A stretch of 64,000 bases of DNA from Flavobacterium beibuense. GTDB lineage: Bacteria; Bacteroidota; Bacteroidia; Flavobacteriales; Flavobacteriaceae. Location: NCBI RefSeq assembly GCF_004151245.1, contig NZ_JUIW01000005.1, positions 62,001 to 126,000 on the forward strand. Reading direction: 5' to 3'. Positions 15,585-21,736 of the stretch are shown here, piece by piece (within the stretch, counting starts at the first letter, position 1; each line of letters opens with the position of its first letter). The position numbers were made by a program, and so were the translations under genes. The notes beneath the pieces were generated by a model. The model saw nothing but the letters and a program-made list of their open reading frames with translations, made no database searches and was not told where the DNA came from.

Positions 15585-15947
15585 ATGACAAACACTGCAT
15601 ATTCGCCCGGGCTTCATAAACTGCTTACGCTCAGGGTGAAAAATATTGATAAACTTACAAACCTTAATGGGTTTAAAAACTTTTCTGATGGTATTTTATT
15701 AAAATACGGATTGGAAGAGGTAGGCTTTTCATCTCATGTTTTTGAAAACGGAAGCTATACTGCGGCCTACTGTTTAAAAGAATCTCATTTATGTATACAT
15801 ACATGGCCTGAGTTTAATCAGCTAACCATGGATGTGTATTTGTGTAATTATCTTAAAGATAATAGTGATAAGGTAAGGGCCATTGCCAATGAATATATAG
15901 TTTATTTTGAAGCAGAGGTAATTAAAGATTTTGAAATTAACCGTTAA
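15585..15947 (+). CDS. AdoMet decarboxylase-like protein (SpeD family)
   Basis: This 120-residue protein resembles the small bacterial S-adenosylmethionine decarboxylase, which self-cleaves to make a pyruvoyl enzyme and produces the aminopropyl donor for polyamines. The cleavage motif is KESHLCIHTWPE: E66-S67 would be the cleavage site and Ser67 the pyruvoyl source. H72 and C87 keep the same +5 and +20 spacing from the serine as the catalytic His and Cys of Thermotoga SpeD, so activity is plausible. It heads a seven-gene run that also encodes an aminopropyltransferase-like protein, supporting an AdoMet-derived aminopropylation pathway. It lacks an adjacent ordinary arginine or ornithine decarboxylase. 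Confidence 0.83.
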   Translation: MTNTAYSPGLHKLLTLRVKNIDKLTNLNGFKNFSDGILLKYGLEEVGFSSHVFENGSYTAAYCLKESHLCIHTWPEFNQLTMDVYLCNYLKDNSDKVRAIANEYIVYFEAEVIKDFEINR

Positions 15948-15951
15948 GCCT

Positions 15952-17181
15952 ATGACTGTTACCTGTCCTGAATGTAAAGCTGTTACAGAAGCCGAAATAG
16001 AGCTTGATGTGATTAATTTTGTATGCCCTAAATGCGCTTCCCTTTTTAATTATAGTTCAGATGGGCCCAAAACTGTGATGAGGACTTTTGATTATACCTT
16101 TAATAATGTTACTTTAAAGGTAGGTCAGCGAGGAAAACTTAACGGGATAAAATATATACTGACCGGAGTTTTGGTTAAAAAAGTTCCTGCCGGTTACATG
16201 TGGCGTGAATATATTTTAACATCCCCAGACGATGAACAGTTGTACCTTTCTGAATATGACGGCCACTGGATAGCACTTCACGAAGCAAAAGAAAAAGCTG
16301 AGAAAGGCCTCTCTCCCGGGACTATTGCTTATGATGGTATGCAGATGGAAATTTTTAGTAAGGGCAATACAAGTATTGTTTCTGCTGAAGGTTTTTTTGA
16401 TTTTAACCTCCCGGAAAAAAATATACAGTTAATTGAATATATCAGTCCGCCATATATTTATTCTGTAGAAAAAATCGGAAAAAACCAAACAGGATATTTT
16501 GGAGAATATATTGCCGCATCAAAAATTAAAAGAGCTTTTGAGGTCAAGAGTATGCCTGCAAGAACAGGTATTGGAATGGCACAGCCATTTAGGTTTGGAG
16601 TCAGGAAAATGGCAATAATCTTTTCTTGTTTTGCTGTCCTTATCCTTATTAGTCATCTGCTGATATACAATGGCAGGGCAGAAAAAGAGGTGTTTAGGAA
16701 AAAGATGGAATTCAGTGAATTTAATAATAAAGATTTTGTAAGCGATTCTTTTGAGTTAAAAGGAGGTGCAGCACCTCTTACAATTTCGGTTCAGTCTGAT
16801 GTAGATAATTCCTGGGCTTCTCTGCAGGTTTCTTTGGTTAATGAGGTTACTAATGAGGAGTTTTATGCTACTAAGGATATAGAGTATTATCATGGCTACA
16901 GTGACGGGGAAATTTGGAAAGAAGGCAGTACTAACGAAAAGTTTAACCTTTGTGGTGTAGGTGCAGGCAAATACCATTTGACAGTTACCCCTGCCAAGCC
17001 GCTGGAAGATTTCTCTAATAAGCAATTAAGTGTAACTGCAACCTGGAATGTGCCTACCCTTTGGAATGTATTTATGTTTATAGGGATTATGCTGATAATA
17101 GTTATTATAGCTTATGTAGCCCAGGCGTTCTTTGAACAGAGAAGATGGTCTGAAAGTGATTATTCGCCATATAATACTTAA
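15952..17181 (+). CDS. DUF4178 membrane protein with zinc ribbon
   Basis: This 409-residue protein begins with a zinc-ribbon (C5-x2-C8 ... C25-x2-C28). It is followed by DUF4178-type beta-rich regions (GQRGKLNGIKYILTGVLVKK; GHWIALHEAKEKAE) and two membrane helices, one about 225-243 (IIFSCFAVLILISHLLI) and one near the C-terminus (FMFIGIMLIIVIIAYVA). The region between would be extracytoplasmic. DUF4178 proteins recur beside DUF350 and spermidine-synthase-like genes in many bacteria, but the function is unknown. I chose ATG at 15952; a TTG at 15931 would give a seven-residue extension overlapping the preceding gene. Confidence 0.78.
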   Translation: MTVTCPECKAVTEAEIELDVINFVCPKCASLFNYSSDGPKTVMRTFDYTFNNVTLKVGQRGKLNGIKYILTGVLVKKVPAGYMWREYILTSPDDEQLYLSEYDGHWIALHEAKEKAEKGLSPGTIAYDGMQMEIFSKGNTSIVSAEGFFDFNLPEKNIQLIEYISPPYIYSVEKIGKNQTGYFGEYIAASKIKRAFEVKSMPARTGIGMAQPFRFGVRKMAIIFSCFAVLILISHLLIYNGRAEKEVFRKKMEFSEFNNKDFVSDSFELKGGAAPLTISVQSDVDNSWASLQVSLVNEVTNEEFYATKDIEYYHGYSDGEIWKEGSTNEKFNLCGVGAGKYHLTVTPAKPLEDFSNKQLSVTATWNVPTLWNVFMFIGIMLIIVIIAYVAQAFFEQRRWSESDYSPYNT

Positions 17182-17186
17182 CAGAT

Positions 17187-17387
17187 ATGAGGAAAGACAG
17201 AATAGTACCATTTATAAAAAACAATATTGCAGCATTGTTAATAGGCGCGGCGGTCTTTGTTTTATTCCTTAAATATACTTTTGAGGGGAATAAGCTTTGT
17301 GATTGCCAAAAAACCGAAAAATATAATTCCGCCACTAACAGCACGCATAGTCGTGCCGCGGGAGTGAATCATTTTTATCATAAATAA
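17187..17387 (+). CDS. Small single-pass membrane protein in the polyamine-like operon
   Basis: This protein of 66 residues has a basic N-terminus (MRKDRIVPFIK), one membrane helix (about 13-30, IAALLIGAAVFVLFL) and a tail with CDC at about 38-40 and several His and Asn residues. No family is recognised. It fits exactly between the DUF4178 gene (5 bases away) and DUF350 gene (11 bases away), on the same strand, which supports that it is real. The position corresponds to that of small DUF4247-like proteins in related clusters, but the sequence is too short to claim homology. Confidence 0.7.
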   Translation: MRKDRIVPFIKNNIAALLIGAAVFVLFLKYTFEGNKLCDCQKTEKYNSATNSTHSRAAGVNHFYHK

Positions 17388-17398
17388 AAACAAATACT

Positions 17399-17611
17399 AT
17401 GGATATTTTTTTAAAACCCGTTTTGAGTTCGTTACTGTTCTCCTTTTTAGGACTTGCTATTTTGTTAATCTCTTACTTTATTGTAGAGAAGCTAACACCT
17501 GAAAACACATGGAAAGAAATAGTACAAAATAAAAACATTGCGCTTGCCATAGTTTTTGCAGCCTTTATAATAGGTATTGCCATTATTATAAGCGGAGCTA
17601 TACATGGGTAA
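17399..17611 (+). CDS. DUF350 (YjfL-like) membrane protein, single repeat
   Basis: This is a 70-residue protein with two membrane helices (SSLLFSFLGLAILLISYFIV and IALAIVFAAFIIGIAIIISG) separated by the short soluble loop KLTPENTWKEIVQNKN. This is the DUF350 unit found twice in E. coli YjfL; here only one copy is present, so it probably acts as an oligomer. Function is unknown. The gene overlaps the start of the aminopropyltransferase gene by 8 bases, showing translational coupling. Confidence 0.8.
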   Translation: MDIFLKPVLSSLLFSFLGLAILLISYFIVEKLTPENTWKEIVQNKNIALAIVFAAFIIGIAIIISGAIHG

Positions 17612-19121
17612 CAAAAAAATCGGTTTTGAAGTATTGCTTTTTCTGGCGGTTTTTACCATAGCCACCTGTGGGCTTGTGTACGAACTAGTGGCCGGTACCC
17701 TGGCGAGTTATCTTTTGGGCGATTCGGTAAAGCAGTTTTCCTTTATAATAGGGGTTTACCTTTTTTCTATGGGGGTAGGTTCTTATTTCTCAAAATTCAT
17801 AAACCGTAACCTTTTAAACACTTTTGTAGATATAGAGATACTGGTAGGGCTTATAGGAGGGCTTAGCTCGGTAATACTTTTTGTACTGTTTGAGAGTGTT
17901 TACTATTTTCAGTTTATACTTTATTTACTGGTTTTTATAACCGGATGTTTAGTGGGGCTGGAAATTCCGCTTCTTATGAACATACTTAAAGACAGGGTTA
18001 CTTTTAAAGACCTTGTGTCTAACGTATTCACTTTTGATTATATAGGAGCCCTGTTGGCATCCATTCTTTTTCCCCTGGTGCTGGTGCCAAAATTAGGTAT
18101 AATGAAAACCTCCCTTTTCTTTGGGATGATTAATGTTAGTATTGCCATAGTGCTTTGCTTTATGCTTAAAAAAGACCTTAAAAATCCTGGGTTACTTAAG
18201 GCAAAAGCTATATTTTCCTTTTTGCTGTTATTAATTGTTTTTGTTTTCTCGGAGAGTATATTGTCGTATTCTGAAGGAAAACTGTATGGGGAAAATATAA
18301 TTTATACACATACCACTTCTTACCAGCGCATAGTACTTACCCATAATAAAAATGACTACAGGCTTTACCTTAATAATAACCTGCAGTTTAGCTCTAAGGA
18401 TGAATACCGCTACCACGAAGCTTTGGTGCACCCTGTAATGTCTATGGCAAATAAGGTTGACAATGTTTTGGTTTTGGGTGGGGGTGACGGACTTGCAGTA
18501 CGTGAAATATTAAAATATGATGAGGTTAATCATGTAACATTAGTAGACCTTGATGAGGGTATGACGGAGTTGTTCAAGACCAATACCGTTTTATCTGATT
18601 TTAATAAGCATTCGTTAACTAATTCTAAGGTAACGGTAATTAACAGTGATGCCTATATATGGCTTAAGGAATGCAAACAAAAGTTTGATGTGGTAATTAT
18701 CGATTTTCCCGATCCTTCAAATTATAGTCTGGGGAAACTGTATTCGCTTAATTTTTACAAGACCCTCAATAAGGTATTGACAGACGATGCAATTACCGTA
18801 ATACAAACCACTTCTCCTTTTTTTGCGCCAAAGTCATTTTGGTGTATCAATAAAACCGCAGCTCAGGTTTTTCCGGTTACCGATGCCTACCATGTTTATG
18901 TACCTTCTTTTGGGGAGTGGGGATATACCATAGCTGCCAGGAGCCTTTCAACACCGTTAGGCAGTGCAAAACGCAGGGTGCAGGGTTTAAGGTTTTATGA
19001 TTATGATTACAGCAGGTTAAACGACTTTCCCAAAGACATGCGGGTTAATGATATAGAGATAAACAGACTGGATAACCAGATATTAGTACGTTATTTTGAT
19101 GAAGAATGGGGAAGACTATAG
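17604..19121 (+). CDS. Membrane-bound spermidine-synthase-like aminopropyltransferase
   Basis: This 505-residue protein has about seven N-terminal membrane helices (residues 8-215) and a C-terminal cytoplasmic domain of the spermidine synthase fold (about 235-500). The domain shows YRYHEALVHPVM, the nucleotide-binding glycine motif VLVLGGGDGLAVREIL, the acidic VTLVDLDE and the catalytic-loop IIDFPDPSNYSLGKLYS. It should transfer an aminopropyl (or similar) group from decarboxylated AdoMet to an amine acceptor, perhaps membrane-associated. It overlaps DUF350 upstream by 8 bases and the FAD enzyme downstream by 26 bases. Acceptor and product are not known. Confidence 0.85.
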   Translation: MGNKKIGFEVLLFLAVFTIATCGLVYELVAGTLASYLLGDSVKQFSFIIGVYLFSMGVGSYFSKFINRNLLNTFVDIEILVGLIGGLSSVILFVLFESVYYFQFILYLLVFITGCLVGLEIPLLMNILKDRVTFKDLVSNVFTFDYIGALLASILFPLVLVPKLGIMKTSLFFGMINVSIAIVLCFMLKKDLKNPGLLKAKAIFSFLLLLIVFVFSESILSYSEGKLYGENIIYTHTTSYQRIVLTHNKNDYRLYLNNNLQFSSKDEYRYHEALVHPVMSMANKVDNVLVLGGGDGLAVREILKYDEVNHVTLVDLDEGMTELFKTNTVLSDFNKHSLTNSKVTVINSDAYIWLKECKQKFDVVIIDFPDPSNYSLGKLYSLNFYKTLNKVLTDDAITVIQTTSPFFAPKSFWCINKTAAQVFPVTDAYHVYVPSFGEWGYTIAARSLSTPLGSAKRRVQGLRFYDYDYSRLNDFPKDMRVNDIEINRLDNQILVRYFDEEWGRL

Positions 19122-20724
19122 CAGTTCGCGCAGGACATTTTTAAAAAGTCTGGGGGCTCTAGCTGTCGGGGCTGCCTTTATACAGTCTTGTGCTAAGAAA
19201 ATTAAGTCAATCGCTTTAAGGCTTACAGGTACCTCTCATATTTTGGGACACAGGTTGTGGGCTAAAGATTTTCCTAATGCTACAAAGCAGCTGAGTGTTC
19301 CTGTACTTATTGTAGGAGGGGGCATAACAGGATTAAGTGCTGCAAGGCAACTTTGCCGAAGAGGCTTTAATGATTTTTTGCTTGTTGAACTTGAAGATCA
19401 TACCGGAGGTAATTCCTCAAACGGAGAAAATGCCTACTCAAAATATCCACTAGGGGCACACTACCTGCCTCTTCCAAATTTTCACGATAAAGAGCTTATT
19501 AGCTTTTTAGAGGAAGAAAATATAATAACCGGATATGATAATGCCGGATACCCTGTTTTTGATGAAGAGCAGCTTACTTTTTCGCCTCAGGAACGGCTTT
19601 TTTACAAAAATACATGGCAGGAGGGACTTATACCCCGTTATGGCACATCGGAAAAGACGATAGCCGAATTTGACCGTTTCTTTAAGCTGATGGAAGGCTT
19701 TAAGTCTCAAAAAGGGAACGACGGGAAGTATAGCTTTGATTTGCCAATAGAGAACGGTTCTCTCGACACTAAGAATGAAGAACTGGATGCGGTAACCATG
19801 CAGCAATGGCTAACGGATAATGGTTTTACAACTGAAGAGGTTTTTGAGTATGTTGACTATTGCTGTCGTGACGATTTTGGTTTGGGTATAAAGTATGTGT
19901 CTGCCTGGGCGGGCATTCATTATTTTGCTGCCAGAAAACATAACGGCGGAGAAGCTAACAAAGAAGGCGTGCTTACCTGGCCGGAAGGTAATGCCAGGCT
20001 GGCGTCTCACCTTAAAAAATATGCATTAAACAAAACTCTGGTCAATCATATTGTTTTTGAGGTTATTCCTGTTGATGATAAGGTTGTGGTTAAGGCTTTT
20101 GATGCCCAAGCCAAACAAACTATTGATATTATAGCAAACAAGGTGATAATGGCAACACCCCAGTTTGTTAACGGTTATATTTTTAAGGAAAGAAAGCCAC
20201 TTGTTAAAGCATTTAATTATGCCCCGTGGCTATTGGCAACCCTTACATTAAGTGATTTGCCAGATGATTTTGGCCAACCGCTTTCATGGGATAATGTTAT
20301 TTATAAAGGGGAGGGTGTAGGTTATATATACGATCAGCATCAGTCATTAAAGCAGGTACATCAAAAAAAGGTAATTACTTATTATCATGTTTTTTCCTGT
20401 AAGGATATCGTAGCTAAGCGAAAAGAAATTTACGGTAAGCGAAAAGAATATTGGAAAGAATTTGTACTTAACGATATAAAAAAGGCTCATCCCGGGATTG
20501 AAGATTTTACTGAAGATATAACAATACATATTTTGGGACATGGCATGATAAGCCCTGTTCCCGGATTTATATTTGGTGAAGCCAGAAAGCAGGCTTCATC
20601 TGTTATAGAGAATAAAATATTTTTTGCCCATAGCGACCTTTCCGGAATTTCGGTTTTTGAAGAGGCTTTTCATCAGGGTATTAATGCAGCAAATAAATTA
20701 ATAAATGAAACAGCCCTGGATTGA
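19096..20724 (+). CDS. Tat-type FAD-dependent amine-oxidase-like protein
   Basis: This 542-residue flavoprotein has a twin-arginine signal (SRRTFLKSLG, residues 11-20) and a possible lipoprotein Cys32 (FIQSCAKK), implying export folded with its cofactor. The FAD-binding motif VPVLIVGGGITGLSAARQL begins near 69 and the acidic end VELEDHTGGNSSN follows, as in amine oxidases and protoporphyrinogen oxidases. The C-terminal FAD contact looks like FAHSDLSGISVFEEAFHQG. In this operon it could oxidise an aminopropylated product on the outer side of the membrane; this is inference. Overlaps are 26 bases with the upstream gene and 20 bases with the downstream one. Confidence 0.82.
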   Translation: MMKNGEDYSSSRRTFLKSLGALAVGAAFIQSCAKKIKSIALRLTGTSHILGHRLWAKDFPNATKQLSVPVLIVGGGITGLSAARQLCRRGFNDFLLVELEDHTGGNSSNGENAYSKYPLGAHYLPLPNFHDKELISFLEEENIITGYDNAGYPVFDEEQLTFSPQERLFYKNTWQEGLIPRYGTSEKTIAEFDRFFKLMEGFKSQKGNDGKYSFDLPIENGSLDTKNEELDAVTMQQWLTDNGFTTEEVFEYVDYCCRDDFGLGIKYVSAWAGIHYFAARKHNGGEANKEGVLTWPEGNARLASHLKKYALNKTLVNHIVFEVIPVDDKVVVKAFDAQAKQTIDIIANKVIMATPQFVNGYIFKERKPLVKAFNYAPWLLATLTLSDLPDDFGQPLSWDNVIYKGEGVGYIYDQHQSLKQVHQKKVITYYHVFSCKDIVAKRKEIYGKRKEYWKEFVLNDIKKAHPGIEDFTEDITIHILGHGMISPVPGFIFGEARKQASSVIENKIFFAHSDLSGISVFEEAFHQGINAANKLINETALD

Positions 20725-21736
20725 TAAGGCAAAAACCGACAGCATATTTATACTGATGCCGCCATTTGTGGTTTTGGCAATTGTATTTTTTTGTCAGGGG
20801 TGGCTTGTGCGTCTTGAAAAAGAATATTCATTTTATACATGGTTATTTTTTGTGGTATTTATAGATGTTGCCCATGTATATGCCACTTTATTTAAAACAT
20901 ACTTAGTGCCGCAAACTTTTAGGAAAAAAAAGAGACTGTTAATAGGCTTGCCTGTAGTATGTTTCTTTATTGGCCTTATGCTTTTTATGCTGGGGAGCAG
21001 GGTGTTTTGGATAACGCTTGCCTACATTGCCGTTTTTCACTTTATAAGGCAGCAATATGGCTTTATGAGGTTGTATTCCAGACTCGAAACTAAAACCCGT
21101 TTTACTGTATTTTTTGATAACCTAACCATATATGCGGCAACCGGATACCCAATGCTTTACTGGTTTATGAGCGCGCCAAGAAAGTATACATGGTTTATGG
21201 AAAATGAGTTTTTTACTTACAGGAATGATGAACTGCTTGCTGTTTTTGGTTATGTGTATGTGTTGATATTGGTTATCTATACGGTGAGGGTTATATATGC
21301 TTTTGCTAAAAGAGGTTATTTTAATATTCCTAAAAATGCCATAATAATTGGTACCGCCGCTTCCTGGTATTTTGGGATTGTATATTACAATAACGACCTT
21401 GTCTTTACCATGCTGAATATAGTTTCACATGGAGTGCCTTACATGGCATTAATTTATCTTAAAGAAATAAGGCAGCCAAGGCAAAATGCGTCGTCATTTA
21501 TGCAGTATATTAATAGCTATAAAGGAATTATAATATATATTGGCCTTTTGTTGCTATTGGCTTTTTTTGAAGAATACCTTTGGGAAATTACGGTTTGGCA
21601 GGAACAGTTCTCTTTTTCAGGAACAGCCGTCTTTCAAAACTGGCATTTTTTACTTGTACCATTGCTGGTAGTGCCGCAGTTTACCCACTACATACTTGAC
21701 GGATTTATCTGGAAAACTCCTAAGAAAGCAGCATAG
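20705..21736 (+). CDS. Polytopic membrane protein with conserved-looking histidines
   Basis: This 343-residue integral membrane protein has about eight or nine helices. No family is recognised with certainty. Several histidines sit at the ends of helices in motifs such as DVAHVYATL, VFHFIRQQYGF, VSHGVPYMA and FTHYILDGFIWK. This pattern resembles membrane enzymes that bind metal (desaturase, hydroxylase or carotenoid-cleavage type), so a metal-dependent membrane oxygenase is possible but unproved. It starts inside the 3' end of the FAD-protein gene and is the last gene of the operon. Confidence 0.68.
   Translation: MKQPWIDKAKTDSIFILMPPFVVLAIVFFCQGWLVRLEKEYSFYTWLFFVVFIDVAHVYATLFKTYLVPQTFRKKKRLLIGLPVVCFFIGLMLFMLGSRVFWITLAYIAVFHFIRQQYGFMRLYSRLETKTRFTVFFDNLTIYAATGYPMLYWFMSAPRKYTWFMENEFFTYRNDELLAVFGYVYVLILVIYTVRVIYAFAKRGYFNIPKNAIIIGTAASWYFGIVYYNNDLVFTMLNIVSHGVPYMALIYLKEIRQPRQNASSFMQYINSYKGIIIYIGLLLLLAFFEEYLWEITVWQEQFSFSGTAVFQNWHFLLVPLLVVPQFTHYILDGFIWKTPKKAA

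Follow-up and report, generated by a model that had tools for sequence, protein, structure and literature searches.

Membrane-bound spermidine-synthase fusions reportedly occur in many genomes, in clusters with genes for S-adenosylmethionine (AdoMet) decarboxylase and DUF350 for which Li et al. 2019 (Biochem J) are said to have proposed a non-polyamine acceptor and to have left it unidentified. We analysed a stretch of 64,000 nucleotides from Flavobacterium beibuense (RefSeq assembly GCF_004151245.1, contig NZ_JUIW01000005.1, positions 62,001 to 126,000), called the window below, in which a seven-gene operon encodes, in this order, a member of the AdoMet decarboxylase family (AMD), a DUF4178 protein, a tiny membrane protein, a DUF350 protein, a membrane aminopropyltransferase (APT), an exported flavin adenine dinucleotide (FAD) enzyme and a polytopic membrane protein (MEM). 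The combination of AdoMet decarboxylase, membrane aminopropyltransferase fusion and DUF350 is the one that Li et al. reportedly described. Operons linked to PspA, with a spermidine-synthase-like protein of seven transmembrane (TM) segments (7TM-SpdSyn), DUF350, DUF4178 and a lipoprotein, and variants with an ATP-grasp enzyme, appear in the parts of Ravi et al. 2024 (PMC11237479) drawn on here, which agrees with the remark in the first-pass annotation of this DNA that sets with DUF350 and DUF4178 are known in comparative genomics. As presented there, those operons share with the window the 7TM APT-like protein, DUF350, DUF4178 and a small exported protein, whereas the window adds the AdoMet decarboxylase, the FAD enzyme, which carries a signal for twin-arginine translocation (Tat), and MEM. 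The tiny protein of the window ends in a lysine that is strongly conserved, and we suggest, giving it about an even chance, that the operon is an envelope protein-tail modification module in which the APT would aminopropylate the C-terminal lysine of a carrier protein.

The first-pass annotation had treated the tiny protein, which ends in ...VNHFYHK, that is in His-Lys (-HK), as mere filler; this is ruled out by the C-terminal lysine, which is conserved in its slot across phyla. For the slot test we took all loci with a DUF4178 gene upstream of a short DUF350 gene and listed the open reading frames (ORFs) of the gap without requiring a terminal lysine (loci and genomes bear our L and G numbers). 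The input was 116 loci, comprising 80 APT relatives, the window, the plasmid loci L118-L124 and the Bacteroidota loci L126-L135 (10) and L146-L163 (18); 93 qualified, and the 23 without the DUF4178-then-short-DUF350 order were left out. The DUF4178 protein itself ends in HK in 41 of the 93, and none of these 41 has a K-ending hydrophobic ORF in the gap, which measures 28-95 nt in 39 of them and 158 and 394 nt in two. The other 52 loci gave a hydrophobic K-ending gap ORF in 50 cases (42 HK, 7 GK, 1 VK), in each of which it is the longest such ORF of the gap; the two that the filter missed were found by looking for K, in L147 as a 61-aa ORF ending in HHK that overlaps the DUF4178 stop, and in L158 as a 76-aa ORF ending in SFGK directly after the first of two DUF4178 genes. 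As a background, 113 of 1032 other ORFs (at least 100 aa) of the same loci end in K and 0 of 1032 in HK.

Among the 23 loci left out, a K tail is present at the locus in L028, L039, L069, L119, L122 and L124, as well as in L148, L149, L153-L156 and L160-L162, and elsewhere in the genome in L034, L037, L061, L063 and L072. Altogether 113 of the 116 loci have a K tail, two a GG tail and one none. These counts are not independent trials, since the loci share ancestry and a species may be represented in more than one set, and they include tails for which the ending (HK or K) served as a filter: those of the initial -HK listing, the plasmid loci, L147, L158 and the genomes with a tail elsewhere. 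That listing of -HK-ending ORFs near the APT placed one inside the operon in the window and in 67 of the 80 loci; 2 others were stray. The HK-tailed protein is of two kinds, a one-TM protein (mostly 44-75 aa) that takes the place of the window's tiny protein, or a DUF4178 protein extended by a TM segment and the tail; the DUF4178 protein of the window ends in ...SPYNT, without HK, and so it is in other loci with a separate tiny protein. The idea of -HK as a constant feature had to be corrected to a C-terminal K, as among loci without HK the tiny proteins of Planctomycetes end in ...WGGGK and those of Acidobacteria in ...FGGK, and distant lipoproteins in ...GFGK.

In 45 distinct separate tails the entropy at positions -3 to -12 is 2.2-3.5 bits, while that of the last position is zero by construction, the tails of this and the codon analysis having been picked by their K or HK ending. 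Lysine is encoded by AAA in 77 and AAG in 14 tails, and histidine by CAC in 49 and CAT in 34; synonymous codons together with the varied preceding residues point to selection on the protein end and not on DNA. Another reading takes the HK end for a motif by which an envelope-stress sensor binds a metal or a protein, with the enzymes making a free polyamine signal, and indeed the window tail has a Cys-x-Cys besides its His-Lys, PspA is found in the published relatives (in the parts of PMC11237479 used here), and SPFH and TelA proteins and an ion channel lie beside the APTs of relatives; we regard this as improbable, because in the slot test the histidine is replaced by glycine (7) or valine (1) and the lysine is kept.

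Further afield, of 12 plasmid records whose match spans at least 80% of the APT, 7 were examined (Gemmatirosa, two Novosphingobium, Burkholderia, Tritonibacter, Ensifer and Alteromonas; APT 34-51% identical), and all 7 have a K-ending hydrophobic or lipoprotein-like ORF in the cluster. A Haloarcula record (25.6% identity), with no DUF350 or DUF4178 annotated beside its APT-like gene, was not counted. Where the APT locus has no tail, 5 of 6 genomes carry one by a DUF4178 gene elsewhere (GHK, or a 67-68 aa neighbour ending in FHK). Nine more distant Bacteroidota operons encode proteins ending in GK, with a long DUF350 in eight and a lipobox pattern in 7, and the tail protein of the Alteromonas plasmid matches this pattern as well. 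Being lipoprotein-like, these tail proteins speak for a final position of the tails outside the cytoplasm, as lipoproteins are exported.

A parallel is provided by ATP-grasp enzymes. The two GG tails belong to the APT genomes L151 and L152, where the tail ends in -SYGG and adjoins a GSP_synth ATP-grasp gene (PF03738). The GSP_synth family includes YgiC and YjfC of E. coli, which RefSeq names peptide-spermidine ligases, and their DUF1190 neighbours YjfM and YgiB end in ...HWGG and ...SMGG, respectively; Pederick 2023 reportedly concerns these ligases. In a set of 395 Bacteroidota genomes, GSP_synth was matched in 31, of which the 17 strong ones were examined; there is no match in the window's genome. 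A neighbour selected by eye as an R/S/G-rich-tailed protein stands by the strong GSP_synth gene in 16 of 17 loci; its last residue is G (7), S (7) or A (2), never K, and 6 of the 16 have a lipobox pattern; no R/S/G-rich-tailed protein was found beside the GSP_synth gene of L174. Genome G166 carries both systems, each with its own tail type (an APT/HK operon, L135, and an ATP-grasp/GG pair, L178), so that they are not strict alternatives. As far as gene neighbourhood can tell, the last residue goes with the kind of enzyme, small residues being paired with the carboxylate-ligating type and lysine with the amine-alkylating type, and it is mainly for this reason that we name the lysine as a putative acceptor and not as a docking signal.

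The latter would be expected if the APT aminopropylated a membrane lipid or a lipid-linked amine, the Lys-tailed protein then serving for docking or regulation, with its end bound to the complex. The APT is membrane-embedded, and effects on membrane structure via polyamine levels or via aminopropylation of other substrates are proposed in the parts of PMC11237479 drawn on; a lipid acceptor, however, predicts no fixed terminal residue on otherwise varied tails, nor G/S/A ends beside an enzyme of the peptide-ligase family, and we consider it unlikely. We give a low probability also to the view that the lysine is a peptidoglycan attachment site, as in Braun's lipoprotein, with the operon modifying or regulating the link. 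The carriers resemble lipoproteins or are anchored in the membrane, and their flexible tails end in K; in L034 a YkuD-like L,D-transpeptidase frame, recognised by its motif by eye, lies about 2.1 to 1.15 kb upstream of the APT; but by-eye inspection recognised no transpeptidase among the recurrent neighbour clusters, and AdoMet decarboxylase, APT and the G/S/A tails of ATP-grasp loci would all stay unexplained. The YkuD-like frame was noticed in L034 only, no dedicated search of other loci having been made.

The operon itself is conserved much more widely than among close relatives. A scan of a species-genome collection gave 129 APT relatives, the best 80 of which come from Bacteroidota, Bdellovibrionota, Verrucomicrobia, Planctomycetes, Acidobacteria, Obscuribacterales and Proteobacteria; over these 80 and the window, 81 loci selected by similarity to the window's APT and therefore not a random sample, profile matches were obtained for DUF4178 in 75, DUF350 in 73, the FAD enzyme in 74, AdoMet decarboxylase in 56 and MEM in 16. 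A recurrent neighbour cluster with a band-7 (SPFH) representative occurs in 21 loci. In a less biased check, the 395 Bacteroidota genomes were searched with an APT threshold of E <=1e-60: APT was found in 29 and AdoMet decarboxylase in 80, the latter in 29/29 APT genomes vs 51/366 others (Fisher 7e-23, the genomes being related and thus not independent trials), and within 4 kb of the APT in 24 of the 29. Sampled members of the window's genus have both in 7 cases and neither in 17. DUF4178 was matched in at least 17 of the 395 genomes, all of them APT genomes, by a genome scan that misses the window's own copy.

According to these profile matches, the conserved core across several phyla is AdoMet decarboxylase, DUF4178, DUF350 and APT, usually with the Tat FAD enzyme. 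The first-pass annotation had proposed a search of genomes for co-occurrence, which came out in favour of a conserved set, reaching well past the close relatives to which its refutation would have confined it; its seven-gene unit stood as to the core and did not stand as one unit, given MEM in 16 and the FAD enzyme in 74 of 81 loci. Its order of aminopropylation and then oxidation is partly retained as well: the AdoMet decarboxylase/APT pair at the membrane does occur with an exported FAD enzyme, yet in 11 distant Bacteroidota operons no gene up to 5.6 kb from the APT carried an FAD-enzyme label, which makes oxidation look like an optional addition. Distant operons also include an Ion_trans ion channel (L148:3508-4302) and a TelA protein (L119:8563-9669), which suggests a link to envelope or tellurite-type stress modules.

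The Spermine_synth Pfam score of the APT is 138.4 bits, its NCBIfam name (NF002956) 'polyamine aminopropyltransferase', and its AlphaFold2 model (predicted local distance difference test, pLDDT, 89.3; 47 sequences) shows seven TM helices followed by a complete spermidine-synthase fold, which superposes on 1uir with Z 35.3 and a root-mean-square deviation of 2.7 over 275 aligned residues. Residues D367, D370, Y270, E272 and Q261, which we take to be those of the active site, are kept in 80/80 sequences; as modelled, the protein is an aminopropyltransferase fold of the type using decarboxylated AdoMet (dcAdoMet), with conserved active-site residues. Lysine and arginine are biased to the N-terminal side of the membrane domain in 47/47 sequences (mean 10.3 vs 1.6), which, with seven TM segments, predicts the enzyme domain outside the cytoplasm. 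Four acidic residues within the TM helices (E27, E78, E120 and D145) are invariant in the 47 sequences and would suit the passage of a cationic donor.

Supply of this donor may be attributed to AMD. It scores 58.2 bits against the AdoMet_dc cut-off of 25, and S67 and H72 are present in 56/56 and C87 in 53/56 operon homologues, so the catalytic spacing noted in the first-pass annotation is conserved and equals that of S63/H68/C83 in the T. maritima enzyme, as given in the portion of PMC10407285 drawn on; the same portion mentions neofunctionalised relatives of AdoMet decarboxylases. By these scores AMD is assigned to the Pfam family only, and the equivalog name TIGR03330 is not claimed for it. 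AMD is the single PF02675 match of the window's genome, which has two Spermine_synth matches, the APT and a 219-aa protein outside the operon (L083, 1369-2028) that falls below every aminopropyltransferase equivalog cut-off and just above that of subfamily NF037959 (40.8 vs 40 bits). The two PF02784 matches of the host are LysA and a SpeA-like gene followed by a deoxyhypusine/homospermidine-synthase-like gene (L085), and carboxynorspermidine decarboxylase is not among them; the two L085 neighbours, arginine decarboxylase (ADC)-like and deoxyhypusine synthase (DHS)-like, are both below their equivalog cut-offs. The host probably makes homospermidine, and such a gene set would leave the AdoMet decarboxylase without another clear client. 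Ordinary spermidine synthesis with transport, for which the AdoMet decarboxylase, the spermidine-synthase fold and the NCBIfam name of the APT would speak, is therefore very improbable in our opinion: it has no need of DUF4178, DUF350 or a tail protein, the genome has DHS/homospermidine-type genes, and related fusions reportedly failed to complement an speE mutant (Li et al. 2019, Biochem J).

Taking all this together, aminopropylation of the carrier tail may be pictured as follows. AdoMet decarboxylase would make dcAdoMet, whose aminopropyl group the APT would transfer to a carrier held in the membrane, at the epsilon-amine of its terminal lysine; the carrier would be the 66-aa protein in the window and a tailed DUF4178 protein or a lipoprotein elsewhere. 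The tiny protein is the best candidate for the acceptor because its C-terminal lysine is conserved. Putrescine, which enzymes of the spermidine-synthase fold normally accept, is an aminobutyl amine, and so is the lysine side chain; the expected product, N-epsilon-(3-aminopropyl)lysine, would have one carbon fewer than deoxyhypusine. Both the transferase domain and the tail would be extracytoplasmic, the 7-TM domain and DUF350 passing the cationic donor outward, and further processing of the product would fall to the Tat FAD enzyme and MEM in some of the lineages; acceptor, membrane side, donor passage and later steps are what we infer. In its full form, where a tethered APT fed with exported dcAdoMet makes a spermidine-like lysine side chain outside the cytoplasm, the FAD enzyme and MEM then oxidise or hydroxylate it, and ATP-grasp/GG and APT/Lys are two routes to a polyamine-tipped tail, we put the scheme forward tentatively.

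A number of points weigh against it. A C-terminal lysine has another known use, Braun's lipoprotein being joined to peptidoglycan through it, and no tail was found for L080 (a 5.6-kb contig), either at the locus or by a DUF4178 gene elsewhere. An AdoMet decarboxylase match is missing from the stretch examined in 25 of the 81 loci; in five of the 29 APT genomes (G005, G066, G087, G328 and G345) the decarboxylase gene lies elsewhere and may serve ordinary polyamines. AMD itself does not reach the NCBIfam equivalog TIGR03330 cut-off (51.1 vs 75.65 bits), and the host may have a second transferase in L083. The predicted membrane side follows from counting TM segments, with a long DSSP helix (134-187) read as two, and an extracytoplasmic APT needs export of dcAdoMet, for which we know of no precedent. 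As to the parallel, the tail comparison covers the 17 stronger of the 31 GSP_synth matches, the remaining 14 being weaker; ATP-grasp loci L164, L165, L166, L168 and L169 encode a second small lipoprotein-like protein of variable end, namely ITVK, ITVK, ITVQ, VTVQ and SEVK, respectively; and ATP-grasp enzymes need ATP, so that their system probably works inside, before export, which weakens the analogy in location.

Two accessories could act after the transfer. The FAD enzyme matches NAD_binding_8 (PF13450, 44.1 bits) and Amino_oxidase (PF01593, 28.9 bits), and its twin arginine, numbered from the TTG at 19096, is kept as R12 in 72/72 and R13 in 70/72 sequences, which bears out the earlier description of a Tat FAD enzyme. 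Its best PDB sequence match is polyamine oxidase 1b37, over residues 68-123 only; the best stretches of all PDB matches fall within residues 67-166, the N-terminal FAD region, and the reading as a plain polyamine oxidase was set aside for this reason. The Tat signal (window 19099-19190) ends in ...FIQSC, and the enzyme may thus be a Tat lipoprotein.

For MEM, no Pfam or NCBIfam match was obtained, 8 weak Pfam families each matching only 1 of 16 members. D54, H57, H112, R115, N238, H242, E289, E290, H328 and D332 are kept in 16/16. In the AlphaFold2 model (pLDDT 83.5) the invariant Asp, Asn, His and Glu residues are spread over five helices, which suggests that MEM carries a metal site. Structural comparison with the PDB gave nothing convincing (Foldseek best E 3.5; VIA-align best Z 5.5, to rhodopsins, and a Z of about 5.5 is common among helical bundles); a relation to Brp/Blh-like carotenoid oxygenases has been considered for it. 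Strong MEM matches (E <1e-130) occur in 11 genomes (the window and L126-L135), in all of them directly 3' of the operon's FAD gene. Distant relatives (L138-L145, about 380-450 aa, E 1e-15 to 1e-20) exist in other Bacteroidota families, so that MEM is apparently part of a broader family of membrane proteins without a name; no APT was labelled near them among the genes listed for these loci, which gives no functional clue. In L137 (G363:C12, ~371045-371382) MEM survives as a fragment interrupted by stop codons, with no APT label in the stretch, which is suggestive of a decayed or lost operon.

All seven ORFs, at 15585-21736 and with neighbours that overlap or lie at most 11 nt apart, were confirmed as real and correctly placed genes, as first annotated, and the labels AdoMet decarboxylase-like, DUF4178, DUF350, membrane APT and FAD enzyme are upheld by Pfam or NCBIfam scores above cut-off. 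Pfam cut-offs (bits) were 25 for AdoMet_dc, 25 for DUF4178, 26 for DUF350, 22.9 for Spermine_synth, 21.9 for NAD_binding_8 and 19.8 for Amino_oxidase. The Pfam scan gave no match above cut-off for the tiny protein, and none to the CesT/Tir-PspA dyad among the seven proteins of the operon. As read from its sequence, the DUF4178 protein has N-terminal CxxC pairs, a TM segment, a putative extracytoplasmic domain and a second TM segment.

Table 1. Features of the operon in window coordinates, with their assignment and evidence.
Feature	Coordinates	Strand	Assignment or proposed role	Evidence
AMD	15585..15947	+	AdoMet decarboxylase, PF02675 family; putative donor (dcAdoMet) supply	PF02675 58.2 bits; S67/H72/C87
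DUF4178 protein	15955..17181	+		PF13785 32.2 bits; TTG start at 15931 also possible
Tiny single-TM carrier protein, 66 aa	17187..17387	+	Proposed aminopropyl acceptor	Tail ...AAGVNHFYHK
C-terminal His-Lys codons of carrier	17379..17384	+		
DUF350 half unit	17399..17611	+	Membrane protein	PF03994 55.9 bits, model positions 4-66 of 133
APT	17604..19121	+	7 TM domain and complete spermidine-synthase fold (model)	NF002956 644.5 bits, cut-off 472
Tat FAD enzyme	19099..20724	+	Amine-oxidase superfamily; putative accessory	PF13450/PF01593; TTG start at 19096 also possible
MEM	20705..21736	+	His-rich polytopic membrane protein of unknown family; putative accessory	Invariant residues in 16/16; no Pfam/NCBIfam match

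By title and start of abstract, no report of the lysine tail was found in the literature searched, most subscription papers and all preprints being outside its scope, and no description of aminopropylation of a protein C-terminal lysine was found in it. The term DUF4178 occurs in one paper of that literature, PMC11237479. The word 'lysine' is absent from the main text of PMC11237479, so the C-terminal lysine is not discussed there. The conserved lysine makes the acceptor question of membrane spermidine-synthase fusions testable by mass spectrometry. If our suggestion is true, it would mean a new protein modification and AdoMet-derived chemistry outside the cytoplasm, and would give a role to DUF350 and DUF4178 together with a link to E. 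coli ygiBC and yjfLMC. The E. coli pairs YgiC/YjfC and YgiB/YjfM resemble the window in having a polyamine-type enzyme beside a tailed protein, with a flexible, G/S/R-rich tail in E. coli, and a DUF350 partner, YjfL; by analogy, YgiB and YjfM may be the substrates of the YgiC and YjfC ligases. They differ in that the E. coli enzyme is an ATP-grasp ligase and the tails end in GG, while in the window the enzyme is of the alkyl-transfer type and the tail ends in K. The reaction proposed for the window is also comparable to the formation of hypusine, in which deoxyhypusine synthase and hydroxylase act on eIF5A: in both an aminoalkyl group would be placed on a lysine epsilon-amine, and MEM, as a membrane protein of metal type, might hydroxylate it. 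In hypusine formation, however, the enzymes are of other folds than those of the window operon, the lysine is internal, the reaction is cytosolic, and the group transferred is an aminobutyl from spermidine.

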